The notes under the pieces are model-generated. The model did no database searches and was not told the DNA's origin. It worked only from the letters and a program-made list of their open reading frames with translations. A stretch of DNA of 64,000 nucleotides from Aphrocallistes beatrix (Eukaryota > Porifera > Hexactinellida > Sceptrulophora > Aphrocallistidae): contig OY725491.1 in NCBI GenBank assembly GCA_963281255.1, positions 806,001 through 870,000 on the forward strand, in the 5' to 3' direction. Made by a program: the position numbers and the translations under genes. Of this stretch, positions 33,143 to 63,652 are shown piece by piece; the stretch's first letter is position 1, and every line of letters starts with the position of its first letter.

Positions 33143-34264
33143 ATGGTAAACGGATACCACCTCCTTTATCAGATTTTCCCAATTGCACTGATTGCATATC
33201 TCACTGTCATTCTACCTGTGTTGTCATACTTCCTGTATCAGAAATATCAGGTTAGAATTCGAATTAAGAATGTTCCTTACTCCACAATATTTGATTTAGA
33301 TTTAGATAAAGTGAAGAAAAATCTAAAAATTGAGTCCATGGTGTATAATTTTATTATCGGGCTGATAATATTGGAAATTTTAGCTGAAGTTTTCCTCACA
33401 GTTAGTCCATCTATATTATATAGAATTCGTTTCCCATTATTGCATCCAGCGCCTATTTTTGAAATGGAAACTCACACTAGCCATAGCTGGAAGGAATACA
33501 GCATCATGATGATATTAAGCTTCTCGTCCGAAATTCCATTGAGTGTAATACCCTCTGCAATCTGTCTATTTCTAATCGTGTTGAGGAGGGCTTTTATTAA
33601 TTTACCGTATGGGAATTATGTTAAGGGATACGGTGTGTATATCTTAGTTCGAGTTATCGTCATGTTAGTACTCTCTGGTTATTTTGAAACGCAGTGCATT
33701 TTGTACATGCTATTCTTACCATTCTTTCTGTTTGACATGTATGTGTACATTTCTTCTTCTTGTGCTTTCTATGTCTTGTTGAAAGGAAGAAGAGATGAAG
33801 CATTTTACCATTCTACTCGAAAGGATTATTTGGATAAAAAAGTGGTTGCAAATCAATTCTATCACACACAAACATTCACTCATTGTGTATTGTTTCTAAT
33901 GCTGCTACATTACATCACTAATTTCTACTTTGGTCTAACAAACCTCTTGCGTTATACACCATTTTCAATTGAATCACTTAGAGATTTATTTAGCCAAAAC
34001 AATATATTTTGGCACATAGGAGAATCTATATTTCCCGACCTCAACATCGTTACGGTTCTTATTCTAAATGTGTACTCATTTCTTACTTATCTCATTATTC
34101 TTGTGTGTATTGTTGTTAAACTATACATTCAAAGAAAGAAAATCAATCACGTAAATGATTGGCTAACTCGACCTCTGATGGAGAACTATAGAGCTAGTCT
34201 GGAGGAGAGAACTCAGCAAAGACCTCCTTTCATTCAGGCGATTCGGTCTCATCTTATCTATTGA
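33143..34264 (+). CDS. family-A seven-segment receptor-like protein A8 (subtype 2)
   Basis: Intact, 373 residues, ATG at 33143 in the context TTAAATGG. It founds the second subtype, with KYQVRIRIKNVPYST and DLDLDKVKKNLKIES in inner loop 1, RRAFINLPYGNYVKGYGVYI after the third segment, and a tail reading KKINHVNDWLTRPLMENYR and QQRPPFIQAIRSHLIY. Outer loop 1 (about residues 91-128) has no glycosylation sequon but is rich in proline, histidine and serine. Convergent with B1. Its 3' flank was copied to 8699-9482. Confidence 0.8.
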   Translation: MVNGYHLLYQIFPIALIAYLTVILPVLSYFLYQKYQVRIRIKNVPYSTIFDLDLDKVKKNLKIESMVYNFIIGLIILEILAEVFLTVSPSILYRIRFPLLHPAPIFEMETHTSHSWKEYSIMMILSFSSEIPLSVIPSAICLFLIVLRRAFINLPYGNYVKGYGVYILVRVIVMLVLSGYFETQCILYMLFLPFFLFDMYVYISSSCAFYVLLKGRRDEAFYHSTRKDYLDKKVVANQFYHTQTFTHCVLFLMLLHYITNFYFGLTNLLRYTPFSIESLRDLFSQNNIFWHIGESIFPDLNIVTVLILNVYSFLTYLIILVCIVVKLYIQRKKINHVNDWLTRPLMENYRASLEERTQQRPPFIQAIRSHLIY

Positions 34265-34661
34265 GAATTAATATAACTGTATACACTGCTTTGATCCTGT
34301 TGTCTTGAATATTTTACATTTTTGATTTGATAAGGAACTATGGATAATTTCTATCTTGTGATTGATTACTGTCATTTTGATTTTTATACGATTAAATTTA
34401 TAACTGAGAGTATATTAATACATTAACTAAAGAACTAACTACAATTCCTAATGTTGTAGCGTGCCCTCTAATATACAATTTGTATTGCAATAAAGTCTCA
34501 ATATAAATTATATTCGATAACCACTATTGAATGAGTGCTGGTGATCTGGCCAGCCGAAATACTTCCCTGATCGGAATTTTAGAGAAAATTACATGAATCT
34601 TTTGCGAAGATGTGATTAATATGTATATTTGCAATACCATACAGTTGTAGATTGTGTACAA

Positions 34662-34820
34662 TACAGTCAACTCCGTTTACTCGGGACAACCAATTAATAT
34701 GGACGAAACTCCAGGAACGGAATGGTTCCGATACATAGAAGTTAATACTATATTTGATCGATTAATTATCGGGACAATTATCTGTGACTAAAGTGTCCCG
34801 ATTAAGCGGAATCACCTGTA
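34662..34820. mobile_element. pogo-like miniature element downstream of A8
   Basis: Left TACAGTCAACTCCG followed by TTTACTCGGGACA, right TGTCCCGATTAAGCGGAATC ending CACCTGTA. Sister of the copy at 9125-9298. Confidence 0.65.
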
Positions 34821-35143
34821 CTTGATTAAGTAGCATCTTTTGAATTCAGAGATAAGCCATGCGATCATGTGCGTATCCAGGACGTTTGGAAGATGGGAGC
34901 ATATCAACCAGCTGGGTGTCTGGGGTCAATGTAATCCCCCAGTGGGATTCAGTGGCAAAGCCCCTGGAAATTAACAACAATTTGTCTCATAATTTGGACA
35001 GATTCATTAAAATATGTTTATACAGAATATATTTAAAAGTTAGCAATCGCCTGTTCCCCAGTCTTACTTGAAATTGAGCATTTCTTCCAGATTGGAGGGA
35101 ATGCAGTCATGTTTCGTCAACACTAATGTGAGACAACATAATG

Positions 35144-35297
35144 CAAGGCCGTAGTCACTAAGTGTGGAAGAGTCCTGTTGAAACTTTAAAGTGGTCGGGT
35201 AAAACCGTCCGAATCTACAAAATGGTCCTTTGTGGCTAAATTGGTCAGAAGTGGTCAGATTGAAATTGGCCCAACCGGACCGGTGGGTACGGCCCTG
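35144..35297. mobile_element. small hAT-like remnant
   Basis: Left CAAGGCCGTAGTCAC and right end GTGGGTACGGCCCTG are inverted repeats with mismatches, and TGGTCGGGTAAAACCGTCCG inside resembles the subterminal repeats of 22279-22911. No clear target duplication, no coding. Confidence 0.5.
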
Positions 35298-36306: not shown

Positions 36307-37467
36307 TCAGTTAGTTAGCAGGTGTTGAGTGAGGTTAGGTGTGAATCTGGTACGAATTCTTCCACAGCGAAACTTCAACTTCTCACTCAACATTTTCCCA
36401 AATATCAGTACACTACTTAAAATGTACTGTATTGCGAACAGAAGGCCCGAAACGGTAAAAAGTATCGCAGAAGCAGAGGTTGAGGTTATAAATATGATTT
36501 CAAGATGTTCAGTCTGTTGTTGAGGTGACACCAACCGCTGGAAGTATGTGGTTCCGTAAAGATAGTGAAACATGCATGGTCCATAGTACAGAGTTAATGC
36601 CACAAGCGAAGAGCATTGCCCTATACATTCTCCAAGAATAAAGCATACGTATCCCACGCCAACACTGCACATGATCAGTGCAAACTGATAAGAATTGGCT
36701 TTTGATCTTCTAACCAATCCTTGGTGTCTACCTCGTACTTGAAACTCCACTGTTCTCCACTTCAATGTTCTAAGGAATATCCTCGCCTGTTTAACCCATA
36801 TACAGAGGTATACCAATTGCACTATAGGCTCAGTTAAGTAGTGGACTATCATAAGCTGTGGAACAGTTCCCGTTATCATAAGAGATAATGCCACCAGACC
36901 AGTAATTAGGAGTAAACGTCTGATGTATGGATACGGGTTAGCCTCAATGTTGTGCAGAATTTCATGGAGATATTTCATCAAGCAAATTCCTAAAGCTAGT
37001 GACGTCACAATTCCTACCTGTCCTGTGGTGACTATTATGGAATTAATTGGATTTTCATACATCAAACGAAGACCAAAAAATTGAATGTGGATCAATTTCC
37101 TACTGCAGTTGTGTAGTAATGCTCTGTCAGGTGAATAGAGATGTTCATATGTATTGAAATAATTCGTGAACATGCATCCTATTGAGTATATTGTAATTGA
37201 ACCAAATTCAGCAATATTTAGCAGTAACAAGACAATGTATTTAATTATATCTGATTTATGATGACGTGCTGCTTCTATGAAGTTCATGAATGGATCTGAT
37301 TGCGCCTTTTGAATACATTCGCGATACAATTTGATGAAATAGATAATTCTCTTCACAAAGTAGGCAGTCCAAAGTATGCATAATATCAAACTAATCGTGA
37401 TCGCTGGCACTGATATACACAACCCAAAATTTTTGTTTATTTTCCATAACAGACTGAAGGTCGTCAT
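36307..37467 (-). CDS. family-B seven-segment receptor-like protein B1
   Basis: Intact, 386 residues, ATG at 37467 (MTTFSLLWKINKN). Hydrophobic segments at about residues 14-40, 74-100, 139-166, 180-206, 209-227, 263-306 (one or two) and 325-361. The long first inner loop is basic and conserved (AQSDPFMNFIEAARHHKS). The outer loop has HNCSRKL with an NCS sequon, followed by LMYENPINS. The third inner loop is strongly basic (LKWRTVEFQVRGRHQGLVRR) and the tail ends RTRFTPNLTQHLLTN. It shares no obvious sequence with family A beyond the layout. Role as a surface receptor is inference. Confidence 0.8.
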   Translation of the reverse strand: MTTFSLLWKINKNFGLCISVPAITISLILCILWTAYFVKRIIYFIKLYRECIQKAQSDPFMNFIEAARHHKSDIIKYIVLLLLNIAEFGSITIYSIGCMFTNYFNTYEHLYSPDRALLHNCSRKLIHIQFFGLRLMYENPINSIIVTTGQVGIVTSLALGICLMKYLHEILHNIEANPYPYIRRLLLITGLVALSLMITGTVPQLMIVHYLTEPIVQLVYLCIWVKQARIFLRTLKWRTVEFQVRGRHQGLVRRSKANSYQFALIMCSVGVGYVCFILGECIGQCSSLVALTLYYGPCMFHYLYGTTYFQRLVSPQQQTEHLEIIFITSTSASAILFTVSGLLFAIQYILSSVLIFGKMLSEKLKFRCGRIRTRFTPNLTQHLLTN

Positions 37468-37527
37468 ATTTTAAGATGTTTGCTAATTCTAAATAATTAA
37501 TTTTTGCTAATTTATTTCACAAATTGC

Positions 37528-37612
37528 ATTTATACAATTTTCAATGGCCAGCAAACCTAGTTTGCTTTAGATATTAAATGTATGTTATTGGATAAATGCC
37601 TATAATGAGTCA
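37528..37612 (-). promoter_or_regulatory. core promoter of B1
   Basis: On the coding strand TGACTCAT (37605-37612) is followed 71 bases later by TATAAAT (37528-37534), then about 60 bases to the ATG. The arrangement is the same in all five B copies. Confidence 0.65.
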
Positions 37613-37857
37613 TATTGATCATAATTATTGAATACTGCCATGCGTATACGTGGAAACATTATATTTTATCGGATAAGGTAGATACTATCAGCGATAAATA
37701 CCTCTATCATCATGGTTTTATTGTGAATGATTAAGACTTTACTATTGCAATATAATCCCTATCCACTTTCTACATATTCATTAAACTTTTAAAAATAATA
37801 TATCATGGTTCCACGTATACACAAGGCAGTATTTAATAATTTTGTTTAAATGAAACA

Positions 37858-38275
37858 TATGAATAAATGAAACATATAAATTTTTCGAATAATTCATAAT
37901 TCAGGATTCTGAATCATTCGAATAATTCATATTTCCTGAATTATGAATTATTCGAATAATTCATAATTCAGGATTGTGAATTATTCGAATTATTCATTAA
38001 TTAATTCATGAATTAGAACTTAGCTTATGATTGACTAATTCATGCTTGAATTATGAATTATTCGAATAATTCATAATTCTTTGCCATTTTTTTATGAATT
38101 AGTCAACTTAGGTATACACAAGGCAGTATTTAACAATTTTGTTTAATAATACCCATTATAGTAGTTATCTAATCACATGCATTCAAACGAGCTATTAAAA
38201 ACGTTCATCTGCATGCGGATAAGGTTTATCCGCATGCGGATATACGTTCATCCGCATGCGGATATCGCATGCGAA
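37858..38275. repeat. AT-rich palindrome cluster and GCATGC palindromes
   Basis: At least three palindromes built on ATTATTCGAATAAT extended by TTCATAATTCA-type arms lie between 37890 and 38080. At 38205-38260 ATCCGCATGCGGAT and variants occur three times in tandem. Single copies of the latter lie near 4157 and 6018. It fills the spacer between B1 and the foldback element. Confidence 0.75.
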
Positions 38276-38334
38276 TTGCGAGAATGAAAATTAAGTAATA
38301 ATAAAAGAAATTTTGGAATAAAAAAGGGACACAT

Positions 38335-39391
38335 CATAGCCTACTCTAATAATGCCTCACAGTAAAATAACCAAGGATGCGGTAATAGCCGAATGGATTA
38401 ATACACGATTAGCCTAAAATCGTTAACCATGCAGAATAGGCGTTAAGAATGTATTACCAGCATATATAAACATGGTATCAAAGTATATATATCCGTTGTC
38501 AAAATTTCAATTAGTCATCATATCATTGCGCAACAGGTCATTTCAAGCACGATTTTGGCAATTTTCTAAGCTGTTTTAAGCCTACTTCTAAATGTTATTA
38601 AGGTAGAATTTTTGCGTAGAGCTAAGATTAGTACGAGTAGATCTGAAATTTTTTGAATTTTTTAATGTAATGTTGTTACATTCCCACGTTGCTATGGTGA
38701 AGCATTTGATCAGTTTGAGCCATATCCTGCAAACTGTAAGAACTAGGTCTTCAAATCTGAACGTATTTGATAGGCAATTGGGTACTTCCTATTAGGTAAT
38801 AATACAATTTAAACTTCTAAATTAACAGACTATAGAGTTATGCGACAATTTAGTGTTTTGGTCACATTCTTAAAATCAACCCAAAACTCAAAACTCGTTG
38901 AATTTAGAAGTTCAAGTTGTATTATCACCTAATAGGAAGTAATCAATTGCCTATCAAACACGATCAAATTTGAAGACCTAGTTACTACAGTTTGTACGAA
39001 TTAGCCAAACTGACCAAAATGCTTTACCATAGCAACGCGGGAATGTAACAACATTCCATTGAAAAATTCTTGATTTTTCAAATCAACTCGTACTAATCTT
39101 GGTTCAACACAAAAATCACACCTTAATACCATTTAGAAATAGGGTTAAAACAGCTTAGAAAATCGCTAAAATTGTCCTGTTGCGCAATGATATGATGACT
39201 AATCGAAATTTTTCCAACGGATATATGTACTTTGATACCATGTTTATATACGCTGGTAATACATTCTTAACGCCTATTCTGCATGGTTAACGATTTTAGG
39301 CTAATCGTGTATTAATCCATTCGGCTACTACTTCCCTCATCCCTAGTCCATGATTTTCAGTTTACTGTGAGGCATTATTAGAGTAGGCTAT
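38335..39391. mobile_element. 1.06-kb foldback transposon, copy 1
   Basis: The element starts CATAGCCTACTCTAATAATG and ends CATTATTAGAGTAGGCTAT, and its two halves are complementary over about 500 bases each, meeting near 38860. It is flanked by the 8-base duplication GGACACAT (38327-38334 and 39392-39399). Eight-base duplications and CA...TG-like ends suggest mobilisation by a hAT transposase. No protein is encoded. Confidence 0.88.
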
Positions 39392-39523
39392 GGACACATA
39401 TATAGTTAGCAAGGTTCTGGGACAAATGAAACGTCTCCAGAGTAGTTATGGACAAGGCCTTCAGACATGAGGCGGCCATGGCCGCCTCACTTTTGACGAA
39501 GCATCTGATGGGAAGGTCTGGGG

Positions 39524-40352: not shown

Positions 40353-42154
40353 AGTAGAGTTGGTGAGGCCCTGGCTCTACCAATAATCTTTAGGGCATTA
40401 GTATCACGCGATCATTGACCGCTTGATCACGATCGCGATTCTATTTTGACGATGGAATGAAGTCAGATCCTTTCTTTTGAATGACCGGTGGGATATTATG
40501 AACTTTTTTAGCCTGATCATTTTTCTAATCATTTTGAGGAGATTTGTATTATCTTTTCTCTTCACCATCATTGACCTATTCTATTTTCTATGCTGTTGTC
40601 ATTTTGAGTCTTTTCCAGATCCATTAAAAAATCTTAGCGCATGCACTGATTGGTTATTATGTGCTTCTTATTGCAGGAAATCTGAAATTTTGTTGCAACT
40701 AAAACCTAGAAGGGACGGGAAGGGGATAAGCCTGGGATATTCTATGTTTTACATTGGGCGCAACCTATCAATTCTGATAGCTCTCAGCAAATTATACTTA
40801 AGTATGTCTATAAATATGTCCACTGATCCACATTCAACTCCCATGAGTTCAGTGCATTCAAATTCTCCCTCCCAGATTTTGGAAAAAAATTTTCTTCGGT
40901 GAGTTAGGGGTATCCCCCCCCCCCGGAATTGGATAATCCCAGGCAGTATTATGGCAAATAACAAATCCATCTTTCAGTCAGCACCAGGTTCATTACTTGC
41001 AATCTGCCATCTATAGCTCTTGTTAGTAAGATACTTAATGTAGGCAAGTATTATCTAGTAAACTTTCAAGGTGCCACAATTTGGGCATGCCTAATTTACG
41101 GGATGGGCCTGCATCCTGTCCCGTAAATTATGCATCTAGATTTTCCGGGACTTTCCAGTCCCGTAAATTAGGCATGCCCCACAATTTGCAGATGTTGCAT
41201 TGTTTCATTGGTGCCGACTTGCTTTATTTCTGGGATACGGAAAATGTAGTGAACTGAAATAATATCACTCCTTTTATCCAGGGAATGAAAGGATTTACAC
41301 TGAACGAACTGAACGAACGCTAGTGGAGTTGAAGTTAGGTGGTGAAAGTATTTTCGTTTCGAACGTGGTCAACTTAATCTGTTCTAAAAATTTCCTCAAG
41401 AGGGAGCAGAATGATTAACCAGGGAGAGGAACACCACGAAACAAATCCTATCACGGGTCACAACACCAAGCTTGTAGTATGAGGATGATTTAAGTCGTAC
41501 CTGGGGATGCGTTGTAAGCCCTGAAAGCTGACAACATTATTTCATATCATAATGTCAAATTCTTCCTGATTTAGTCTATGTATATCAATGCAATATTTAT
41601 CACAGAACGTAGTTGATAAAATCCTGATATGAGTATGAAACACAGTAAACTGAATTAATAGATTCTGAAACAACATTAAACCGAGGATGGGAGGGATTAA
41701 TCGCATATCAATGTCCTTATCTTTAGACAAAACCTTATTCTCATAGATCAATTACGAATAAAATAAATTTATGAAATTAATACCAGGAGGAACTTAAAAA
41801 TTTCCAGGGAGTGGCATTGTCCCCCTTTTACGACACCCTCCTCTCCCATGGTGAAGTCTCTATTCTAAACTTCTCATACATATATACGCAGTGAATTGCA
41901 GATATTCATATGTTTCATTTAAACAAAATTATTAAATACTGCCTTGTGTATACGTGGAACCATGATATATTATTCTTAAAAGTTTAATTAATATGTAGCA
42001 AGTGGATAGGGATTATATTGCAATAGTAAAGTCTTAATCATTCACAATAAAACCATGATGATGGAGGTATTTATCGCTGATAGCATCTACCCTATCGATA
42101 AAATATAATGTTTCCACGTATACGCATGGCAGTATTCAATAATTATGATCAATA
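40353..42154. other. gene-free spacer left of B2
   Basis: No supported gene. The 141-codon frame at 40477 covers repeat sequence shared with 4660-4805 and has no homologue here. A palindromic element lies at 41083-41180. From about 41900 the sequence is the inverted counterpart of 37560-37870 (upstream of B1), for example TGTGTATACGTGGAACCATG. Confidence 0.5.
41083..41180. mobile_element. short palindromic element, GGGCATGCC type, with target duplication
   Basis: GGGCATGCCTAATTTACGGG at the left and its complement at the right, flanked by CACAATTT on both sides, an 8-base duplication. Smaller relatives at 16242 and 32457. Confidence 0.7.
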
Positions 42155-42239
42155 TGACTCATTATAGGCATTTATCCAATAACATACATTTAATATCTAA
42201 AGCAAACTAGGTTTGCTGGCCATTCAAAATTGTATAAAT
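42155..42239 (+). promoter_or_regulatory. core promoter of B2
   Basis: TGACTCAT at 42155-42162 and TATAAAT at 42233-42239, the fixed family-B spacing, although the gene behind it is truncated. Confidence 0.6.
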
Positions 42240-42298
42240 GCAATTTGTGAAATAAATTAGCAAAAATTAATATTTAGAATTAGCAAACATCTTAAAAT

Positions 42299-42890
42299 AT
42301 GATGAACTTCAGTCTGTTATGGAAAATAGACAAAAATCTTGAGTTCTATATAACAGTGCCAGCGATCACGATTAGTTTGATATTATCCATACTTTGGACT
42401 GTCTACTTTGTGAAGAGAATTGTCCATTTCATCAAATTGTATCGCGAATATATTCAAAAGGCGCAATCTGATCCATTCATGAACTTCTTAGAAGCAGCAC
42501 GTCATCATAAATCTGAGATAATTAAATACATCTTCTTGTTACTCGTAAATATTGTTGAATTTGGTTCAATTACAATATATTCAACAGGTAGCATAACTGC
42601 GAATAATTTCAATACATATGAACATCTCTATTCACCTGACAGGGCACCACTGCACAACTGCAGTAGAGAATTGGTCCACACCCATATTTTTGACTTGCGT
42701 TTAATGTATGAAAATCCAATTAATTCCATATTAATCACCACGGGACAGGTAGGAATTATGACGGCGCTAGCTTTGGGGAATTGCTTGATGAAATACCTTC
42801 ATGAAATTATGCATAACATTGAGGCTAACCCTTATCCATACATCAGACGTTTACTCTTAATCACTGGTCTGGTGGCATTATCCTTACTAT
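42299..42890 (+). pseudogene. family-B gene B2, 3' half lost
   Basis: ATG at 42299 (MMNFSLLWKIDKN). About 197 codons match B1 through the fourth membrane segment (RRLLLITGLVALSL). At about 42890 the homology stops abruptly in a tail of TATATA and the inverted 3' end of repeat R2. The open frame runs on for 13 unrelated codons. The outer loop keeps HNCSRELVHTH. Segments five to seven and the tail are missing, so it should not work as its intact relatives do. Confidence 0.85.
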
Positions 42891-42965: not shown

Positions 42966-42968
42966 CTG

Positions 42969-43340
42969 ATGAGACCTAAACGCCTGAATGAAAGGAGGTC
43001 TTTGCTGAGTTCTTCTCCTCTCCAGGTTAGAGCGGTATCTTTCCATCAGAGGGCGAGTTAGCCAATCATTTACGTGATTGAACTTCTTCTTCCGAATAAA
43101 TAATTTCGTCACAATTTTTACAAATATAAAGAGATAAATAAAAAATAAGCAAATGTCCAAAACACAAATTGACACATCGTACGTGTTATTGCAGATAAAC
43201 TTTGTTATGTTCCAACATTTTGGGCAAAGAAAGATGAATTTCCTGGATAATCCGAATGAAACAGTTCCGAAATATGAACTAGCTAAAAAGTCCATCACAG
43301 AAAGTGAGAATTCAGAAGCGTAATACAACAGTAACATAAA
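42969..43340 (-). pseudogene. family-A C-terminal fragment A9
   Basis: About 120 codons: part of the sixth segment, an unusual outer loop with CPKCWN and NNTYD, the seventh segment and the tail KKKFNHVNDWLTRPLMERYR to FIQAFRSH. The normal final codons and stop are replaced by repeat R2, so the frame runs on into PSAPGSFF. The 5' two thirds are absent. Confidence 0.85.
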
Positions 43341-43827: not shown

Positions 43828-44378
43828 TCAATAGATAAGATGAGACCGAAACGCCTGAATGAAAGGAGGTCTTTGCTGAGTTCTCTCCTCCAGACTAGCT
43901 CTATAGTTCTCCACCAGAGGTCGAGTTAACCAATCATTTACGTGATTGATTTTCTTTCTTTGAATGTATAGTTTTGCAAAAATACAAGAACAACGAGATA
44001 AGTAAGGAATGAGTACACATTTAGAAAATTAATCGCAACAATATTCAGATGGAAAAATATATATTGTATTATGTTCCAAAATTTATAGTTTTGGAAAAAG
44101 AAATCTCTAAATGATTCAGATGAAAATATTCCAGAAAGCAAGAGGTTTGTTTGACCAAAGTAGAAATTAGAGATGTAATGGAGTAACAATAAAAATAATG
44201 CACAATAAGTGAATGTTTGTGTGAGATAGATTTGATTTGCAACCACCTTTTAAAATAATTTTTAAATAACTTAAATAATCCCTTTGAGAAGAATGGTAAA
44301 ATGCTTCATCTCTTCTTCCTTTCAACAAGACATAGAAAGCACGATAAGAGAAAATATATGCACGAATATCAATTAAAA
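43828..44378 (-). pseudogene. family-A subtype-2 C-terminal fragment A10
   Basis: From about 44378 down: RAFYVLLKGRRDEAFYHSS, a disrupted stretch at 44250-44280, then FTYCALFLLLLHYISNFYFG, the seventh segment, a frameshift near 43970, and INHVNDWLTRPLVENYR to the stop at 43828-43830. Segments one to four are missing. It abuts the N-terminal fragment A11 on the other strand. Confidence 0.8.
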
Positions 44379-44384
44379 AGAATG

Positions 44385-44670
44385 ATAGATGAAAGACGCA
44401 TACACAACACTCATTGAAATACTGCCTGTTGTATTATTTGCGTATCTTACTGTCATTCTACCTGTGTTGTCATACTACCTCTATAAGAAATATCAGGTTA
44501 GATTACAAATCAAGAATGTTCCTTACTCCACAATATTTGATTTGGATTTGGAAAAAGTGAAGAAAAATCTAAAAATTGAGTCCATGGTGTGAAGTTTTAT
44601 TCTTGGACTGATAATTATGGAAATATTATCGGAATTTTTCTTGTTTTTATTTCTTTTTGTGCGCAATCTT
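44385..44670 (+). pseudogene. family-A subtype-2 N-terminal fragment A11
   Basis: MKDAYTTLIEILPVVLFAYL, then YQVRLQIKNVPYST and VKKNLKIESMV, after which a TGA replaces the tyrosine of VYNF (44590). Homology goes on for a short distance (SFILGLIIMEILSEFF) and fades. It has the start and first segment only, and is closest to A16. Confidence 0.8.
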
Positions 44671-45275: not shown

Positions 45276-46060
45276 ATGGCGAACGGATTGCTCCTCTTTC
45301 ATCAGATTGTCCCAATTCTATTGTGTCCGTATGCTGCCGTCACTCTACCTGTGTTATCGTACTTCCTCTATAAGAAATATCAGGTTAGAATAGAAATTCG
45401 GAAAATCTAAAAATAGAATCCATGGTGTATAACTTCGTTATCGTACTGACGATATTAGAGATTTTAGCGAATCTTTTCTCTTCAGTTCAGCAATTTCTAT
45501 TGATTGATCTTCGTGTCCCAGTGTGGCATCTTGTACCTATTATTAACATGCAAACTAAAATTACTAGCCATAGCAAGAAGAAGGACAGCATCATGATGAC
45601 ATTAAATTTCTTTTTAGAAATTCCATTGAGTGTAATACCCTCTGTAATTTGTCTATTTCTAATTGTGTTGAGGAGGGATTTTATCAATTTACCGTATGGG
45701 AATTATGTTAAGGGATTGGTGTGTATATCTTAGTTCGAGTTATCGCTATGTTAGTACTGTCTGGTTATTTTGAAACGCAGTGCATTTTGTATATGCTACT
45801 CTTAACATTCTTTCTGTTTTATATGCATGTGTACATTTCTTACATTTCATGTGTACATTTCTTTCTTGTCCATTCTATGTCTTGCTGAAAGGAAGAATGG
45901 ATGAGGAATTTTACCACTCGACTCAAAGGGATTATTTAGAGAAAAAAGTGGTTGCAAATCAATTATATCACACACAACATTCACGCATTGTGCATCATTT
46001 TTATTATTACTCCATTACATCTCAAATTTCTACTTTGGTCTAATAAACCTTTTGCTTCTG
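45276..46060 (+). pseudogene. family-A subtype-2 pseudogene A12
   Basis: ATG at 45276 (MANGLLLFHQIVPILL, as in A17). It has lost about 60 bases between EIR and KIES near 45400, has a 1-base deletion near 45717 (KGLVCIS for KGYGVYI), more damage around 45840-45900, and ends in the sixth segment at about 46060, where repeat R2 begins. The readable parts include LIDLRVPVWHLVPII and IPLSVIPSVICLFLIVLRR. Confidence 0.85.
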
Positions 46061-46061
46061 C

Positions 46062-46330
46062 CAGGCCCAGAAAGCTGATTTTTGGGATGCAGGAGTTTTT
46101 TGGCTATGGCTCTACTAAGCTCTAAGCTCAAACGAAAATGTCGACACATCATGGAATTATGACGCCATTGTTTATCATTCGAAAGTTCAGTTTTTCAATC
46201 ATAACTCGGCCATTTCAAGTGATAAAACGCTGAAATTTTAATAAAATTTGTATAATAATACTATTCAAATGTGATTTAACTATCATAAAAAATGATGACC
46301 CATCTCTGTTATGACTTATTCATTTCTTAA
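46062..46330 (-). repeat. repeat R2, inverted copy, truncating A12
   Basis: Complement of 690-960: AAAGCTGATTTTTGGGATGC, GGCTATGGCTCTACTAAGCT, ATGTCGACACATCATGGAAT. It begins where A12 stops. After it, 46320-46480 is another orphan subtype-2 upstream remnant, and 46500-46640 a copy of R4. Confidence 0.65.
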
Positions 46331-49823: not shown

Positions 49824-49867
49824 CATATTATTGGTTAAGTTTCCAATTTATTCTGATATAATATATA

Positions 49868-49946: not shown

Positions 49947-49949
49947 TAT

Positions 49950-50461: not shown

Positions 50462-50641
50462 CTATCTCGGCGAGGTGTGAACATTTCGCTTAGATCTTCG
50501 AACTTAATCCTAGATTCATCATTTGACACCTACATGCCAATTTTCGTATCTCTACGACTTGCCAATTCTTCAATCAATTCGGACAAACAAACAAACAAAA
50601 AAAAAAAAAAAAAATCCTGGAGTTTTAATATATAAGATATA
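50462..50641 (+). repeat. repeat R3, uninterrupted copy
   Basis: The empty-site counterpart of 2436-2972, ending in an A-rich run (about 50587-50611) and ATCCTGGAGTTTTAATATA, consistent with a retroposed short element. Confidence 0.6.
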
Positions 50642-50821
50642 TTGAATAACCTTATTCAGTCAATATTATACATAAATTAACGAGTAGACTCCACCATGCA
50701 TATATTATTAAGATTAAATAGGAAAAATTACAGCATCCATTACTTCATATCTGAGTTTTATTATTTGTTTATAATTAATCTTATCCGATTTTAGCTCACA
50801 CAATTAAATAATAGTTTAGAT

Positions 50822-51885
50822 CATAGCCTACTCTAATAATGCCTCACAGTAAAATAACCAAGGATGCGGTAATAGCCGAATGGATTAATACACGATTAGC
50901 CTAAAATCGTCAACCATGTAGGATAGGCATTAAGAATGTATTACCAGCATATATAAACATGGCATCAAATAACATATATCCGTTGTCAAAATTTCGATTA
51001 GTCATCATATCATTGCGCAACAGGTTATTTTAAGCACGATTTTGGCAATTTTCTAAGCTGTTTTAAGTCAACTTCTAAATGCTATTAAGGTAGAATTTTT
51101 GTGTTAAACCAAGATTAGTACGAGTTGATTTGAAAAATTTAGAATTTTTCAATGGAATGTTGTTGCATTCCTGCGTTGCTATGGTAAAGCATTTTGGTCA
51201 GTTTGGGCCATTTCGTGCAAACTGTAGTAGCTAGATCTTCAAATTTGATCGTGTTTGATAGGCAATTGGCTACTTCCTATTAGGTAATAATACAATTTAA
51301 ACTTTTAAATTCACAGACTATAGAGTTATGCGACAATTTAGTGTTTTGGTCACATTCTTAAAATCAACCCATAACTCAAAACTCGTTGAATTTAGAAGTT
51401 CAAGTTGTATTATCACCTAATAGGAAGTAGGCCATTGCCTATCAACACGATCGAATTTGAAGATCTAGCTACTACAGTTTGCACGAAATGGCCCAAACTG
51501 ACCAACATGCTTTACCATAGCAACGCAGGAATGTAACAACATTCCATTGAAAAATTCTAAACTTTTCAAATCAACTCGTACTAATCTTGGTTCTACACAA
51601 AAATCACACCTTAATACCATTTAGAAATAGGGTTAAAACAGCTTAGAAAATCGCTAAAATTGTCCTTAGAATGACCTGTTGCGCAATGATATGATGACTA
51701 ATCGAAATTTTTCCAACGGATATATGTACTTTGATACCATGTTTATATATGCTGGTAATACATTCTTAATGCCTATTCTGCATGGTTAACGATTTAGGCT
51801 AATCGTGTATTAATCCATTCGGCTACTACTTCATCCCTAGTCCATGATTTTCAGTCTACTGTGAGGCATTATTAGAGTAGGCTAT
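50822..51885. mobile_element. 1.06-kb foldback transposon, copy 2
   Basis: Same ends and internal sequence as 38335-39391, flanked by a different perfect 8-base duplication, GTTTAGAT (50814-50821 and 51886-51893). The paralogous place at about 59365-59395 on the other strand lacks the element, a natural empty site. Arms of about 500 bases meet near 51350. Confidence 0.9.
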
Positions 51886-52029
51886 GTTTAGATTTATTCC
51901 AGGAGTGTATAGTCTAGAAAAAAAGGATATCGATTTAGAAATATTTACCAGATGTATTAACGTGTACAGTAGATACCGGTAATAAGAACATGTCGGATAT
52001 AACAACATTCTAGAAAAAGGTTGATATAT

Positions 52030-52857: not shown

Positions 52858-52911
52858 TCTGGTGTGATCCTATTCTATTATAATTTAGTTTCAATTTGTG
52901 AGATATTCAAA

Positions 52912-54057
52912 ATGGTAAACCTCTTAGCATTGCTATTGTACATATGTCCATTTGTACTGATTCCTTATCTTGTTATTATGGTCGCTGTATTCGTATATTT
53001 CGTGTATCAGAAATACCAGGTGAGAACACGGATCGAGAATGTTCCTTACTCAACCATATTCAATATCGATTTAGACAAAGTGAAGAAGAATCTGGAGATA
53101 CAATCCATGGTGTATGACTTCATGCTTTTACTTATGATGATAGAGGTACTAGCAAATGTTTTCTGGGGCATTCGTCAATTTATTTATACGGATTTGAATA
53201 AGTCTAAATTCCATATAGTGAATACAAGTACTAGCGTTCGAAATCAAACCATCTTTAAAGTTACGATCGAAGTAAATCATTTTCTCATGTTGTTATTTGA
53301 ATTGGATACAATTACACTGAGTTTAATACTGCCCGTACTCTGTCTCTTTCTAATCGTGTTAAGAAGAGCTTTCATCAATTTACCATACAAACTATGGGTG
53401 AGGAAATACAGTGTGTATATCTTAGTTCGAGTTGTTCTCATGTCAATAATGTCCCTTTTCATCGAAACACATTTTATTGTGGGAGTTATGTATTTGCTAT
53501 TCTTCTTGTTTGATATTTGTGTGTACATTTCTTCTTCTCATGCTTTCTATGTCTTGTTGAAAGGAAGAAGAGATGAAGCTCTTTACCATTCTTCTCGAAA
53601 GGATTATTTGGAGAAAAAGTCAATTGCCAAACAATATTTTTATACACAAATATTCAGTTTGTTCGGTTTATTCATAATACTTTTGTATTACATTTCTAAT
53701 TTCTTCGAAATCATCATAAGTATGCTCACCAATCCCGTTCTCTTTCAATCTATTTCTTTAGGATATTTTCCTAATTTTTCCTTCTACACATCAAATGCTA
53801 TGACCATAGCAAACCGTTTTTCTGATATCTTCCAACCAATTTGTGCTCTTTTACTAGAATTGTGCGCTTTTCTCCCTTACATAGTTATTTTTGTTAGTAT
53901 TTTGTTGAAATTGCTTATTCGAAGGAAGAAGTTCAATCACGTGAATGATTGGATAACTCGCCCTCTGATGGAAAGGTACCGCTCTAGTCTGGAGAAGAGA
54001 AGAATTCAGCAAAGACCTCCTTTCATTCAGGCGTTTAGATCTGGTATTGTCTACTGA
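52912..54057 (+). CDS. family-A seven-segment receptor-like protein A15
   Basis: Intact. The ATG at 52912 (MVNLLALLLYICPF, context AAAATGG) gives 381 residues and matches the start of A8. An ATG at 52864 would add 16 residues but lies only a few bases after the TATA-like box, so it is unlikely to be in the transcript. Seven segments, outer loop 1 with NTS and NQT sequons, KGRRDEALYHSSRKDYLEKK loop, and the tail HVNDWITRPLMERYR with IQQRPPFIQAFRSGIVY. It lies 565 bases upstream of B4 on the same strand, the mirror image of the A13-B3 pair. Confidence 0.82.
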   Translation: MVNLLALLLYICPFVLIPYLVIMVAVFVYFVYQKYQVRTRIENVPYSTIFNIDLDKVKKNLEIQSMVYDFMLLLMMIEVLANVFWGIRQFIYTDLNKSKFHIVNTSTSVRNQTIFKVTIEVNHFLMLLFELDTITLSLILPVLCLFLIVLRRAFINLPYKLWVRKYSVYILVRVVLMSIMSLFIETHFIVGVMYLLFFLFDICVYISSSHAFYVLLKGRRDEALYHSSRKDYLEKKSIAKQYFYTQIFSLFGLFIILLYYISNFFEIIISMLTNPVLFQSISLGYFPNFSFYTSNAMTIANRFSDIFQPICALLLELCAFLPYIVIFVSILLKLLIRRKKFNHVNDWITRPLMERYRSSLEKRRIQQRPPFIQAFRSGIVY

Positions 54058-54564: not shown

Positions 54565-54622
54565 ATAATTTTAAAATAAATTGGCAAATATAAACATTTA
54601 TAATCCACAAATATCGCTAAAT

Positions 54623-55783
54623 ATGATAAAATTAAATCCGTTATGGAAAACAGACAAAATTGTTGAGTTCTATATATCAGTTCCAGCAATCACGATTAGT
54701 TTGATATTATCCATACTTTGGACTGTCTACTTTGTGAAGAGAATTATCTATTTCATCAAATTGTATCGCGAATGTATTCAAAAGGCGCAATCAGATCCAT
54801 TCATGAACTTCATAGAAGCAGCACGTCATCATAAATCTGAGATAATTAAATACATTTTCTTGTTACTGATAAACATTGTTGAATTTGGTTTTATTACAAT
54901 ATACTCAATAGGAAGAATGATCGCGAATAATTTCGATACATATGAACATCTCTATTCTCCTGACAGGGCATCACTGCACAACTGCAGTAGGAAATTGGTC
55001 AACAGTAATATTTTTGATCTTCGTTTGATGTATGAAAATCCAATTAACTCCATATTAGTCACCACGGGACAGGTAGGAATTATGACGTCACTAGCTTTAG
55101 GGATTTGCGTGATGAAATACCTTCATGAAATTATGCATAACATTGAGGCTAACCCGTATCCATACATCAGACGTTTACTCCTAATTACTGGTCTGGTGGC
55201 ATTATATCTTATGATAACGGGAACTGTTCCACAGCTTATGATAGTCCACTACTTAACTGAGCCTATAGTGCAATTAGTATACATATGTATATGGGTTAAA
55301 CAGGCGAGGATATTCCATAGAACATTGAAATGGAGAACAGTGGAGTTTCAAGTACGAGGTAGACACCAAGGATTGGTCAGAAGATCAAAAGTCAATTCTC
55401 ATCAGTTTGCACTGATCATGTGCAGTGTTGGCGTGGCATACGCATGCTTTATTCTTGGAGAATGTATAGGGCAATACTTTTCGCTTTTTGCATTAACTCT
55501 GTACTATGGACCATGTATGTTCCACTATCTTTACGGAACCCCAAACTTCGATCGACGGCTGTCAACTCAACGACAGACTGAACATCTTGATGTCGTATTT
55601 CTAACCTCAGCCTCTGCTTCTTTGATGCTTTTTGTCATTGGAGGCCTTCTAATCGTAATACAGTACATTTTAAGTACTGTATTGTTTTTCGGGAAAATCT
55701 TGAGTGATAAGTTGAAGTTTCGCTGTGGAAGAATTCGTACCAGATTCACACCTAACCTCACTCAACACCTGCTAACTAACTGA
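54623..55783 (+). CDS. family-B seven-segment receptor-like protein B4
   Basis: Intact, 386 residues from the ATG at 54623 (MIKLNPLWKTDKIVEF); the frame extends 14 codons further to a TTG, which I do not take as the start because B1 and B5 also give 386 residues from their ATG. Segments lie at the positions given for B1. The outer loop has HNCSRKLVNSNIFD. Segment four carries ITGTVPQLMIVHYL. Inner loop 3 (TLKWRTVEFQVRGRHQGLVR) is nearly identical to the other B proteins. Downstream partner A16 is convergent. Confidence 0.82.
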   Translation: MIKLNPLWKTDKIVEFYISVPAITISLILSILWTVYFVKRIIYFIKLYRECIQKAQSDPFMNFIEAARHHKSEIIKYIFLLLINIVEFGFITIYSIGRMIANNFDTYEHLYSPDRASLHNCSRKLVNSNIFDLRLMYENPINSILVTTGQVGIMTSLALGICVMKYLHEIMHNIEANPYPYIRRLLLITGLVALYLMITGTVPQLMIVHYLTEPIVQLVYICIWVKQARIFHRTLKWRTVEFQVRGRHQGLVRRSKVNSHQFALIMCSVGVAYACFILGECIGQYFSLFALTLYYGPCMFHYLYGTPNFDRRLSTQRQTEHLDVVFLTSASASLMLFVIGGLLIVIQYILSTVLFFGKILSDKLKFRCGRIRTRFTPNLTQHLLTN

Positions 55784-56466: not shown

Positions 56467-56867
56467 TTAGTAGACTTGATTAGACCGAATTGCCTGAATG
56501 AAAGGAGGTCTTTGCTGAGTTCTCTCCTCCAGACTAGCTCTATAGTCCTCCATCAGAGGTCGAGTTAGCCAATCATTTACGTGATTGATTTTCCTTCTTC
56601 GAATAAATAGTTTTACTACAATACACACAAGAACAACGAGATAAGTAACAAATGAGTACACAAATAGAAAATTAATCGCAACAAGTTCCATAATTCATAG
56701 TTTTGGAAAAAGAAATCTCTAAATAATTCGATTGAAAATTGTCCAGAAAGCAAGAAGTCTGTTAAACCAAAGTAGAAATAGAGATGTAATATAGTAATAA
56801 TAAAAATAATAAAATTACAAACAATGTAGTGAATAAAGAAATTATATTCCATATACTACGTATACAT
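56467..56867 (-). pseudogene. family-A subtype-2 C-terminal fragment A16b
   Basis: From about 56860: HLYFYFGLTDFLLSG and FRDFFFQNYELWN, a deletion near 56690, INFLFVYSFVTYLVVLVCIV, then the tail INHVNDWLTRPLMEDYR to the stop at 56467. Only the end of segment six onward is present, with a frame change at about 56690. It is a tandem partial duplicate of A16 and closest to A17. Confidence 0.85.
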
Positions 56868-57231: not shown

Positions 57232-58358
57232 TTAGTAGGCTTGATTAGACCGAATTGCCTGAATGAAAGGAGGTCTTTGCTGAGTTCTCTCCTCCAAACT
57301 AGCTCTATAGTTCTCCATCAGAGGTCGAGTTAGCCAATCATTTACGTGATTGATCTTTCTTCTTCGAATAAATAGTTTTACAATAATACACACAAGAATA
57401 ACAAGATAAGTTAGAAATGAGTACACAACTAAAATAGTAACCGCAACATTATTCAAGTACAGAAATATAGATTCTCTTGTGTACCAGAATTTTACGTTTT
57501 GGAAAAAGAAATCTCTAAATGATTCAGATGAAAATGCTCCAGAAAGCAAGAGGTTTGTTAGGCCAGAGTAGAAATTAGAGATGTAATGGGGAGTAACAAT
57601 AGAAAAAATACACAATGAGTGAATGTTTGTGTGTGGTAGAATTGATTTACAACTACCTTTTTCTCCAAATAATCCTTTCGAGTAGAATGGTAAAATGCTT
57701 CATCTCTTCTTCCTTTCAACAAGACATAGAAAGCACGAGAAGAAGAAATGTACACACGAATATCAAACAGAAAGAATGGTAAGAGTAGCATATTCAAAAT
57801 GTTTCGAGTTTCAAGATAATTAGACAATGCTAACATGACGATAACTCGAACTAAGATATACACACCATATCCCTTAACATAATTCCCATACGGTAAATTG
57901 ATAAAAGCCCTCCTCAACACGATTAGAAATAGACAGATTACGGAGGGTATTACACTCAATGGAATTTCTGACGAGAAATTTAATATCATCATGATACTGT
58001 CTTTCTTGCTGCTATAGCTAGTAATTTTATTTTGAATGTCAAGAACAGGTACAAGATGCCATAATGGGACATGAAGATCAATCATAAGAAATAGGTTGAC
58101 TGAGTAAAAGAATTCCGATAATATTTCCAATATTATCAACCCGATAATAAAATTGTACACCATGGACTCAATTTTCAGATTTTTCTTCACTTTATCTAAA
58201 TCCAAATCAAATATTGTAGAGTAAGGAACATTCTTAATTTCTATTCTAACCTGATATTTTTTATAGAGGAAGTAAGACAGCACAGGTAGAGTGACGGCAA
58301 CATACGGAAACAGTACAACAGGAACGATTTCAATCAGTGTTGTATATGCACTTCCCAT
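57232..58358 (-). pseudogene. family-A subtype-2 gene A16, one frameshift
   Basis: ATG at 58358 (MGSAYTTLIEIVPVVLF); the frame upstream needs a TTG. Open for about 256 codons through the fifth segment and KGRRDEAFYHSTRKDYLEKK. It then shifts by one extra base in a short run (CTCCCC, near 57583-57590) inside segment six. The remainder (HYISNFYSGLTNLLLSG to FIQAIRSNQAY) is open to 57232. Outer loop 1 contains the LIDLHVPLWHLVPVLD segment typical of this subtype. Complete apart from one lesion. Confidence 0.82.
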
Positions 58359-58435
58359 CTGAATTCTTCTTTTCAATTATAAAACTAAATTTTCAGTGTT
58401 TCAGCTTTAAATGTATTGAGATACTATCACAGACT

Positions 58436-59389: not shown

Positions 59390-60195
59390 TTATTTAATTG
59401 CGTGAGCTAAAATCGGATAAGATTAATTATGAACAAATGATAAAACTCAGTTATGAAGTAATGACTTGTAATTTTTCCTATTTAATCTTAATAATATACG
59501 TACCTACTCGTTAATTTGTGAATAATGTTAACTCAATAAGGTTATTCAATAGATATGTATTATATCAGAAAAAAATGGAAACTTGACCAATAATATGTTA
59601 GCATTTTATGCATTTCTAATTGTGCTGAGGAGAGCTTTCATCAATTTATCATACAACTTATGGGTAGGAAGATATAGTGTGAATATTTTAGTTCGAGCGG
59701 TTGCTATGTCATTAATGTCTTTGTTTCCTCAAACAGATTACAGAGTAACGTCGAAACATTTTTTCTACACACAAATTATTACTTTTTTGTGTTTATTGTT
59801 AGTATTATTGGATTACATTTCTATTTTCTGCAATACTACAATCGATATTTTGTAGTTCTAGTTCCATTGAAATGTTTTCTTCTGCTCATTCTGCTGACTT
59901 ATTACTTCAATGGCGCCCGTTTGCATACAAATGTAAGGACATAAGTGGATTACTATCTGGAGCATCCATTTTTCTCTTAGAAATATTTTTATTTAATTTT
60001 TATTTATTTATTTGTATGAGTATTTTGATGAAATTATTCACTCGAAGGAAGAAATTCAATCACGTAAATGATTGGATAACTCGCCCTCTGATGGAAAGGT
60101 ACCGCTCTAGTCTGGAGAAGAGAAGAACTCAGCAAAGACCTCCTTTTATTCATGCGTTTAGGTCTGGTATTGTCTCCGGACAATTGACCCATTAA
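59390..60195 (+). pseudogene. family-A pseudogene A14 and its collapsed promoter
   Basis: About 59591-59608 (TATGTTAGCATTTTATGCA) is the A13-type promoter joined directly to the coding sequence of segment three (FLIVLRRAFINLSYNLWVGR), so the first two segments are deleted. A second deletion removes most of segments four and five (QTDYRVTSKHFFYTQ). A 2-base loss at about 59852 gives a stop after TTIDIL. The tail to 60195 is intact apart from FIHAF and a changed end (VSGQLTH). Closest to A13. Bases 59390-59540 match 50670-50815 inverted. Confidence 0.85.
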
Positions 60196-60745: not shown

Positions 60746-60803
60746 GTAACTTTTGAATATATTAGCAAATATAAACATTTATAATTCGCAAATATTGCTA
60801 AAT

Positions 60804-61964
60804 ATGATAAACTTCAATCCGTTATGGAAAATAGAGGGAATTCTTAAGCTCTATATATTAGTGCCAGCGATCACGATTAGTTTGCTGTTATCCATACTTT
60901 GGACTGTCTACTTTGCGAAGAGAATTATCCATTTCATCATACTGTATCGCGAGTGTATTCAAAAGGCGCAATCTGATCCATTCATGAACTTCATAGAAGC
61001 AGCACGTCATCATAAATCTGAGATAATTAAATACATTTTCTTGTTACTGATAAACATTGTTGAAATTGGTTCTGTGACAATATACTCAATAGGAAACATG
61101 ATCGCGGATAATTTCTACACATATGAACATCTCTATTCACCTAACAGGGCATCACTGCACAACTGCAGTTGGAAATTGGTCCATACTCCAATTTTGGACC
61201 TTCGTTTGATGTATGAAAATCCAATCAATTCTATATTAGTCACCACGGGACAGGTAGGAATTATGACGTCACTAGCTTTAGGAATTTGCTTGATGAAATA
61301 CCTTCATGAAATTCTGCATAACATTGAGGCTAACCCGTATCCATGCATCAGACGTTTACTCCTAATTACTGGTCTGGTGGCATTATATCTCATGATAACG
61401 GGAACTGTTCCACAGCTTATGGTAGTCCACTACTTAACTGAGCCAATAGTGCAATTGGTATATCTCTGCATATGGGTTAAACAGGCGAGGATATTCCATA
61501 GAACATTGAAGTGGAGAACAGTGGAGTTTCAAGTACGAGGGAGACATCAACGATTAGTGAGAAGATCAAAAGCCAATTCTTATCAGTTTGCACTGATCAT
61601 GTGCAGTGTTGGCGTGGCATACGCATGCTTTATTCTTGGAGAATGTCTCGAGCAATACTCTTCGCTTGTTGCATTAACTCTTTACTATGGACCATGTATG
61701 CTCCACTATCTTTACGGAACCCCATTCTACCACCGATTAGTGTCAACTCGAAAACAGACTGAACTTCTTAAAATTGTTTTCGTAACTTCAGCCTCTGCTT
61801 CAATGTTACTTTTTAGCTTTGCGGTCCTTCTGATCGCAATACAGTACATCTTAAGTACTGTATGGTTTTTTGGGAGAATCTTGAGTGAGAAGTTGAAGTT
61901 TCGCTGTGGAAGAATTCGTACCAGATTCACACCTAGCCTCACTCAACACCTGCTAACTAACTGA
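60804..61964 (+). CDS. family-B seven-segment receptor-like protein B5
   Basis: Intact, 386 residues from the ATG at 60804 (MINFNPLWKIEGILKL); the open frame reaches back to a TTG at 60753, not used here. Same layout as B1 and B4, with local changes in the outer loops (HNCSWKLVHTPILD; YGTPFYHRLVSTRKQTELLK) and inner loops almost unchanged. Convergent with A17 about 560 bases on, with an R4 repeat between. Confidence 0.82.
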   Translation: MINFNPLWKIEGILKLYILVPAITISLLLSILWTVYFAKRIIHFIILYRECIQKAQSDPFMNFIEAARHHKSEIIKYIFLLLINIVEIGSVTIYSIGNMIADNFYTYEHLYSPNRASLHNCSWKLVHTPILDLRLMYENPINSILVTTGQVGIMTSLALGICLMKYLHEILHNIEANPYPCIRRLLLITGLVALYLMITGTVPQLMVVHYLTEPIVQLVYLCIWVKQARIFHRTLKWRTVEFQVRGRHQRLVRRSKANSYQFALIMCSVGVAYACFILGECLEQYSSLVALTLYYGPCMLHYLYGTPFYHRLVSTRKQTELLKIVFVTSASASMLLFSFAVLLIAIQYILSTVWFFGRILSEKLKFRCGRIRTRFTPSLTQHLLTN

Positions 61965-62169
61965 TGTGACTGTGAAGAAACATATTTTGTATGGCTATTC
62001 TTGTGTACTGTTTTTGTTTCTTCTTCATTGTTAATTATTTTAAGGTATGTGATTGGAGATTAATTCATACAAATAAGTGCCTTTTTTTCCTAGCGGAGGT
62101 TGGCAAGTGTGAAATTATGATTCTCCGTAAATTATACGATCAAGCATAATCTCATACTTGCCAATTTCT

Positions 62170-62340
62170 GGAAAGAAACAGGCGGGACATAAGTAGGATT
62201 TTAGTGTGGCTATTTAGCGGGACATGGTATATTCGTCATATACACTGAATAGCTGGACAATTCCATTTTGCGTAACATTTTCGCGGAACATTACCTTCAA
62301 TATATTTCCGAAAAAGCAGGACATCTCACGGGGCTTATGA
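62170..62340. repeat. repeat R4, copy between B5 and A17
   Basis: GGCGGGACATAAGTAGGATT, TTTAGCGGGACATGGTATAT, AGCTGGACAATTCC and GCAGGACATCTC. Confidence 0.6.
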
Positions 62341-62527
62341 TGGAAAGCAAAAGGAATTTCCTGCAAGTAGCAGTTTATGGTTTAATTATCATAGTTACAT
62401 CAACAAAAGATTACACATAAAAAGATACAAAATCAAGTTATAAATTTAGGAAAGAAATCAGATAAATTTCTAACAACTGATTAAACATAAAATAGAATAA
62501 AAATAAGACAGATAAAGAGTTCTATTT

Positions 62528-63652
62528 TTAGTACACTTGATTAGACCGAATCGCCTGAATGAAAGGAGGTCTTTGCTGAGTTCTCTCGTCCAGACTAGCT
62601 CTATAGTTCTCCATCAGAGGTCGAGTTAGCCAATCATTTACGTGATTGATCTTCTTTCTTTGAATAAATAGTTTAACAACAATACATACAAGAACAACGA
62701 GATAAGTTAGAAATGAATACATACTTATAAAATTAATAGCAATAAGATTCATGTAGGAAAATATACATTGTATTATATTCCAAAATTTATAGTTTTGGAA
62801 TAAGAAATCTTTAAATAATTCGATTGAAAATGGTCCAAAAAGCAAGAAGTCTATCAAACCGAAGTAGAAATGAGAGATGTAATGAAGTAATAATATAAAT
62901 AATGCACAATGCGAGAATGTTTGTGTGTGATAGAATTGATTTGCAACTACCTTTTTCTCTAAATAGTCATTTCGAGAAGAATGGTAAAATGCTTCATCTC
63001 TTCTTCCTTTCAACAAGACATAGAAAGAACGATAAGAGGAAATATATGCACGAATGTCAATCAAAAAGAATGGTAAGAGCTGCATATACAAAATGTTTTG
63101 AGTTTCAAGATAATTGGACAATGTTAACATGACGATAACTCGAACTAAAATATACACACTATATCCCTTAACATAATTCCCATACGGTAAATTGATAAAA
63201 GCCCTCCTCAACACGATTAGAAATAGACAGATTACAGTGGGTATTACACTCAATGGAATTTCTGACGAGAAATTTAATATCGTCATGATGCTGTCTTTCT
63301 TCTTGCCTTGGCTAATAATTTTATTTTGCATGTCAAAATTAGGTACAAGATGCCACACTGGGACATGAAGATCAATCAATAGAAATTGTTGAACTGAGGA
63401 GAAAAGTTTCGCTAAAATCTCTAACATCGTCAGTGCGATAACGAAGTTATACACCATGGATTTTATTTTTAGATTTTTCTTCACTTTATCTAAATCTAAA
63501 TCAAATATTGTAGAGTAAGGAACATTCCTAATTTGTATTTTAACCTGATATTTCTTATACATGAAATATGATAACACTGATAGAGTGACGGAAGCATACG
63601 GAAACAATAGAATTGGGAGAATCTGATCGAAGAGGAGCAATCCGTTCGCCAT
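62528..63652 (-). CDS. family-A seven-segment receptor-like protein A17 (subtype 2)
   Basis: Intact, 374 residues, ATG at 63652 (MANGLLLFDQILPILLFPY). Subtype-2 features: KYQVKIQIRNVPYST, DLDLDKVKKNLKIKSMVYNF, outer loop LLIDLHVPVWHLVPNFD without a sequon, RRAFINLPYGNYVKGYSVYI, KGRRDEAFYHSSRNDYLEKK and the tail KKINHVNDWLTRPLMENYR ... QQRPPFIQAIRSNQVY. Seven hydrophobic segments. Relics A12 (N-terminus and outer loop) and A16b (C-terminus) are its nearest relatives here. Confidence 0.82.
   Translation of the reverse strand: MANGLLLFDQILPILLFPYASVTLSVLSYFMYKKYQVKIQIRNVPYSTIFDLDLDKVKKNLKIKSMVYNFVIALTMLEILAKLFSSVQQFLLIDLHVPVWHLVPNFDMQNKIISQGKKKDSIMTILNFSSEIPLSVIPTVICLFLIVLRRAFINLPYGNYVKGYSVYILVRVIVMLTLSNYLETQNILYMQLLPFFLIDIRAYISSYRSFYVLLKGRRDEAFYHSSRNDYLEKKVVANQFYHTQTFSHCALFILLLHYISHFYFGLIDFLLFGPFSIELFKDFLFQNYKFWNIIQCIFSYMNLIAINFISMYSFLTYLVVLVCIVVKLFIQRKKINHVNDWLTRPLMENYRASLDERTQQRPPFIQAIRSNQVY

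Follow-up and report, generated by a model that had tools for sequence, protein, structure and literature searches.

Inverted copies of a two-family membrane-protein cassette in a probable glass-sponge genome

How does a cluster of related genes come to hold copies that face in both directions, next to an array that keeps only one? The question is raised by a 64,000-nucleotide stretch of contig C4 (C4:806001-870000; 'the window' below, whose numbering is used unless a contig is named), part of a genome of 100.5 Mb in 28 contigs. Positions 33143 to 63652 make up the core of a cluster that spans 85 kb (about C4:820-905 kb) and is built from two related gene families, here called A and B. In this span a module with the order A> B> <A occurs five times, in partly broken form. 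An analysis of the letters alone, the original prediction, had described this span as a chain of alternating inverted duplications. The description largely holds, although the array runs on beyond the window to about C4:905 kb, where it includes a further B copy (B6) and an inverted copy of A6-A7. DNA-level copying of the A> B> <A cassette took intergenic sequence along, and among the copies several are inverted.

Inverted homology extends into intergenic DNA

The modules M1 to M5 lie at 32.7-37.9 kb (minus strand, without its upstream A), 41.9-44.4 kb (plus, truncated), 44.4-49.7 kb (minus), 52.8-58.8 kb (plus) and 59-64 kb (plus), the last three with the full A> B> <A order. Two pairs of flanks had been proposed as inverted partners, and both were recovered. 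For the first (37560-37870 with 41900-42240), the query 37470-37870, taken from upstream of B1, is 98% identical to inverted 41903-42296; the M1 arm (37468..37865, minus) and its inverted partner, the M2 arm (41903..42298, plus), are the two sides of this match. For the second (48030-48600 with 54060-54620), 48080-48600 matches inverted 54058-54572 at 87%. A search with these two flanks, which ignores very common words, gave 13 and 14 matches including the flanks themselves, all in the C4 and C6 clusters and at the B loci of C8 and C19.

Self-comparison gave longer inverted blocks between M1 and M2 (36879-37865 against 42886-41903, 92.5%), M3 and M4 (46541-48776 against 56137-53882, 2.3 kb, 88%) and M3 and M5, where the M3 block at 46541..49024 (minus) pairs with 62279-59759 (2.5 kb, 86%). 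M1 and M3 match directly, as their shared strand predicts (35708-37651 against 46315-48210, 85%). The expected anti-diagonal blocks with intergenic DNA are therefore found; they are not continuous palindromes, however, as spacers of about 3-4 kb lie between the arms. The M1/M2 spacer (37866-41902) measures 4.0 kb, including a later insertion of 1.06 kb. Within the M1 arm, the stretch 37610-37853, whose inverted copy lies near 41915-42157, has 60-bp inverted ends (83%). It appeared in no other place in the flank search and could be a small element inserted before the duplication.

The original prediction held that inverted homology reaches outside the genes, and it does. With palindromic elements masked and coding stretches excluded, homologous non-coding DNA in the chain span amounts to 5,668 bp in inverted and 3,385 bp in direct orientation, these figures being sums over copy pairs in which the same stretch may count several times. 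The adjoining array A1-A7 (14294..31298, minus), used as a control and correctly described beforehand as keeping one direction, has 58 bp inverted and 5,074 bp direct. In a 10-kb piece of the B array on C13 the values are 0 and 1,456 bp, and in 32 kb of adjoining non-receptor DNA 0 and 3,369 bp. At 17401-18075 the A1-A7 array holds a dense repeat, both inverted and tandem, whose steps measure about 11 or 22 bp; a similar stretch occurs in the C6 cluster (L016, about 9371-9994).

Two further inverted pairs lie partly or wholly outside the window. The A6-A7 block (27954..31723, minus) has an inverted copy at C4:880607-884347 (78347-74607 in window numbering), so that this pair (3.8 kb, 89%) brackets the chain. 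The inner end of the copy runs through a clean joint into the truncated B6, with an overlap of about 1 bp as judged by eye. This is the sole readable joint, and so short an overlap suggests a non-homologous origin through replicative template switching or end joining, as opposed to recombination of repeats. A B gene on C8, accompanied by degenerate A pieces, has an inverted counterpart at a distance of 108 kb (521-525 against 632-635 kb; 2.98 kb, 92%).

Orientation is randomised, not alternating

Once pieces are merged, under a 20-kb limit and with all 110 A and 104 B rows included, adjacent copies change strand in 9 of 15 cases within the span and in 17 of 80 in the rest of the genome (Fisher p = 0.004). 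The p-value ranged from 0.0009 to 0.04 across six settings; with rows as listed and the same limit, the counts were 9 of 18 and 17 of 86. Within the span itself, nine switches in 15 are what random order would give (shuffle P = 0.41, from a typed list lacking some overlapping or short A rows, for which the comparison was 9/15 with 17/78). The excess over the genome, taken together with this shuffle-like order, therefore indicates that orientation has been randomised. Strict alternation fails, since the modules follow the order - + - + + and M4 and M5 face the same way. The 'repeated flipping' of the original prediction holds in that several inverted pairs exist, but it is too strong for a series with one direct adjacent pair and a statistically random order.

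Gene copies of the chain

Intact frames remain in six of the 16 copies of the span. The strands and order given earlier are confirmed; one copy was absent from the earlier list, A11, an N-terminal A fragment at 44389..44625 (plus). M1 contains A8, an intact subtype-2 A gene of 373 amino acids identified by its open reading frame and by family search (33143..34264, plus), and B1, an intact frame of 386 amino acids (36307..37467, minus). M2 has the truncated B2 (42299..42886, plus), behind which lies A9, a 3' fragment of an A gene (42972..43340, minus); A10 (43831..44415, minus) is a fragment placed in subtype 2 by the tree. In M3, B3 (46872..48059, minus) carries one in-frame TGA and is flanked by A12 (45276..46075, plus) and A13 (48604..49732, minus), which the tree identifies as broken copies of subtypes 2 and 1, respectively. 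M4 comprises A15, an intact subtype-1 gene of 397 amino acids (52864..54057, plus), the intact B4 of 400 amino acids (54581..55783, plus), the fragment A16b (56470..56780, minus) and the broken subtype-2 gene A16 (57235..58376, minus). M5 consists of A14, a broken copy assigned by the tree to subtype 1 (59613..60174, plus), and two intact frames, B5 with 403 amino acids (60753..61964, plus) and the subtype-2 gene A17 with 374 (62528..63652, minus).

Relationships differ from segment to segment

Five of the seven well-supported sister pairs in the A tree lie on opposite strands (A12/A17, A13/A14, A7/A20, A24/A25 and C6c/C6d) and two on the same strand (A3/A5 and A22/A23). As entire modules, M3 and M5 go together, since the A genes on both sides form sister pairs. 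Just upstream of B, however, M3 is closer to M4 (96%), which makes the record a mosaic. Identity between M1 and M2 falls from 99% near the start of B to 92% and then 87% inside B. For M3 and M4, 300 columns at 36-66% give way to 96% within the A tail, near 48776/53882. The simplest reading of this patchwork is that gene conversion has acted within the array.

Silent sites provide a further, weak test, one that requires first bases to match and depends on alignment quality. When subtypes of A within the array are compared, fourfold sites agree at 0.73 in the cytoplasmic parts and at 0.56 in the rest of the gene; the corresponding values for copies located on other chromosomes are 0.39 and 0.29. 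Single subtype pairs vary, some being lower in the tail. The tests used 10 (per pair) and 12 (pooled) of the 20 distant A loci, and A20, with its in-frame stop, was left out per pair.

Fold-back or template-switch duplication as the probable mechanism, and its rivals

We consider it probable that the chain arose by repeated inverted segmental duplication, through fold-back or template switching, and that decay and gene conversion followed. We are led to this mechanism by the non-coding inverted arms, the spacers of a few kb and the one joint that is nearly free of homology. A broken end or stalled strand would copy the adjacent segment backwards, and end joining would seal the product; afterwards the copies would decay as they acquired stops, deletions and transposon insertions, and gene conversion between them would yield mosaic genes. 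Inverted duplication with flanks, as originally proposed, can be seen in M1/M2, in M3/M4 or M3/M5, in A6-A7 and in the C8 pair, to which the sisters A24/A25 and C6c/C6d can be added.

Several observations weigh against this account. The copies M4 and M5 run in the same direction (53882-56184 against 60005-62324, 84%), and the switches within the span are no more frequent than chance would have them. In the right part of the cluster most homologous non-coding DNA is in direct orientation (1,474 bp, against 531 bp inverted), and so it is in the C6 cluster (3,896 against 802 bp). Short inverted repeats are not demonstrated at most joints, insertions having blurred the axes, and part of the M1/M2 arm could be a small inserted element because of its 60-bp inverted ends. 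The B-gene tree, from an alignment of 18 of the 20 fetched B loci (L035 and L039 left out), is a star in which five of seven inner branches are open, and the nearest relatives of the modules change by segment; the order of the duplications therefore cannot be fixed.

Could the modules instead have been duplicated directly in tandem and been inverted later, by recombination between inverted A genes? Each complete B module is flanked by A copies in opposite directions, whose 3' tails share high DNA identity and could serve as recombination substrates. The direct arrangement of M4/M5 and of the adjoining A1-A7 agrees with this scenario, as does the identity step inside the A tail. We nevertheless find it unlikely, though it deserves to be taken seriously: most of the well-supported same-chromosome sister pairs are on opposite strands, the inverted A6-A7 copy ends at its joint of about 1 bp and not at a repeat, and the inverted C8 pair is 108 kb apart.

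False inverted copies might also result from mis-joined or collapsed haplotypes. Duplicate contigs may indeed have been left in the assembly, as a B match on C5 (33.7 kb) scores the same as one at C4:4694324-4695454, and C5 may be a leftover haplotype copy. However, divergence between the inverted arms is 2 to 16%, their insertions and stops are not the same, the 134 kb examined contain no N, and the same module order is found again on C6, which together make an assembly artefact very improbable.

Lastly, palindromic transposons at 38.3 and 50.8 kb, one in each of two spacers, might have caused the inverted duplications, and the centre of the second (51354) is only 15 bp from the computed M3/M4 symmetry point (51339); we reject this idea, because the other centre (38863) misses its axis (39883) by about 1 kb, the family is dispersed, and the direct target-site duplications of both copies and of three out of three others indicate transposition, where an element at the origin would have inverted flanks.

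Palindromic elements and other repeats

The two elements occupy 38333..39392, in the M1/M2 spacer, and 50822..51886, between M3 and M4. The 1.06-kb element is a near-complete palindrome (82-87% self-complementary) with the ends CATAGCC/GGCTATG, and direct 7-bp target-site duplications surround all five copies examined (two in the window and three in L026-L028). Together with these duplications, its dispersal (the best 40 of 1,932 first-look candidates were scored) places its insertion later than the duplications of the modules. The palindromic or template-switch origin suggested beforehand is plausible, but the palindromic elements at the two axes arrived afterwards and are not its cause.

An AT-rich quasi-palindrome (37876..37997) lies 11 bp inside the spacer from the end of the M1 arm and is a candidate fragile site, which might have acted as a hinge. 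It is one of 12 such sequences in 134 kb, so that its position may be due to chance. The inverted match of 49866-50643 with 68763-67993 was dropped as evidence of duplication, since 49866..50643 is a dispersed repeat of 778 bp with at least 40 full copies at 95-98% identity or more, some of them with tandem or inverted neighbours. No Rfam match reached the gathering score.

Two related families of seven-helix proteins

What do the cassettes encode? Both A and B are single-frame membrane proteins with seven predicted helices, and they are remotely related (hhalign E = 6.7e-9). The genome matches scored, the best 110 of 237 first-look candidates for A and the best 104 of 419 for B, are lower bounds of family size. 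Pfam has no family for either; 7tm was absent from the 10 families listed at E <= 1 when 26 A members were scanned, and the A and B profiles each found no match in a sequence search of solved structures.

The most likely role of A and B is that of surface receptors, as suggested by the loop pattern of A, a G-protein-coupled receptor (GPCR)-like model of A and the A-B relation. The predicted cytoplasmic loops of A are conserved and the outer loops variable. Loops 1, 3 and 5 and the C-terminal tail have predicted net charges of +4.7, +4.2, +5.4 and +7.6, which suggests that the N-terminus is outside; in gustatory and odorant receptors of the insect type it is inside. The A model adopts a GPCR-like seven-transmembrane fold, and its listed structural neighbours are GPCRs, nearly all of class A. 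Against a receptor role, Foldseek gave no match to this model at E <= 0.001, four of the five A models are poorer (predicted local distance difference test, pLDDT, 45-60), and the B model (pLDDT 40) offers no usable fold. A resembles class A GPCRs in its seven predicted helices and in its positively charged, conserved inner loops. It differs from them in lacking a Pfam 7tm match, the NPxxY motif (0 of 25 A proteins, L071 left out) and a DRY-type motif outside the C-terminal tail: [DE]R[YFHW] occurs in 16 of the 25, always at relative position 0.92-0.95, and was not found at the end of helix 3.

Might A> B> encode the partner chains of one heteromeric seven-helix receptor, in a cluster that enlarges itself by fold-back? 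A and B stand side by side at M3, M4, M5 and on C6, and B is accompanied by degenerate A pieces at M6 and at both C8 sites. Inverted gene tails and the AT-rich palindrome would serve as hinges, each inverted copy would favour the next, and gene conversion would keep the inner faces of the proteins alike while the outer faces were free to vary. The two families are mostly apart, however: among the 98 B copies listed for places beyond the C4 cluster, only one (on C6, the second locus with the A> B> <A order) lies within 10 kb of a listed A match, and the B locus of C19 has none. These findings lowered our estimate slightly, and we regard the combined proposal as doubtful. Large arrays of the B family, mostly in one direction, lie at C1:8.6-12.1 Mb and C13:4.07-4.27 Mb.

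Host and neighbouring sequence

The mitochondrial code points to a host that is probably a glass sponge. TGA is read as Trp in the 18-kb mitochondrial contig, and in one COX1 alignment inspected by eye none of 16 AGA codons falls at an Arg of the best Protein Data Bank chain, against seven of nine CGN codons. An atp9-like frame at position 193 was recognised by eye, and all mitochondrial frames recognised in this way are on one strand. Haen and colleagues are reported to have described in 2007 glass-sponge mitochondrial genomes in which AGR is not Arg and atp9 is present, a pattern with which the features of this genome agree.

To the left of the cluster, a direct 1.4-kb duplicate (87%) links C4:804055-805415 (L010) with 12116-13476; its gene (12154-13113, 319 amino acids) has Pfam matches only below threshold.

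Comparison with known systems and implications

The sections covered of a report on human nonrecurrent inverted duplications attributed to fold-back (PMC3907307) describe inverted arms around a normal-copy spacer, mostly of a few kb, with little homology at the joint; the sponge chain is similar, to judge for the joint by the one that is readable. Those duplications are large, come from patients and are tied to a broken chromosome end, whereas the sponge modules are 2-6 kb long, old and interstitial, with most joints blurred. A second system, as far as its covered text goes, shares local interstitial inverted copies followed by rearranged palindromic junctions; what sets it apart is an inverted triplication and, at each of its two joints, a short interrupted inverted repeat, neither of them established for the sponge chain.

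Literature on expansions of glass-sponge receptor and gene families, mostly abstract openings with parts of PMC10282587 and PMC10280926, contains no description of A or B, which does not prove that none exists. Glass-sponge genomes are rich in single-exon genes. The sections covered of PMC10282587 report clusters of such genes in Aphrocallistes vastus and, for one cluster, call the expansion mechanism uncertain, replication slippage and retrotransposition both being possible. Clusters of single-exon genes are common to both cases; the largest A. vastus cluster encodes AIG1-domain proteins, and neither A nor B is named in those sections. At our locus flanks were copied along with the genes, often flipped, which argues against retrotransposition here; the mechanism can be tested through the joints in related species.

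The locus illustrates one route by which large receptor-type gene families grow, namely copying together with the surrounding DNA, often in flipped orientation. It also reveals two large families of seven-helix, receptor-like proteins, both without a Pfam entry, in sponges, an animal lineage that to our knowledge has no neurons.

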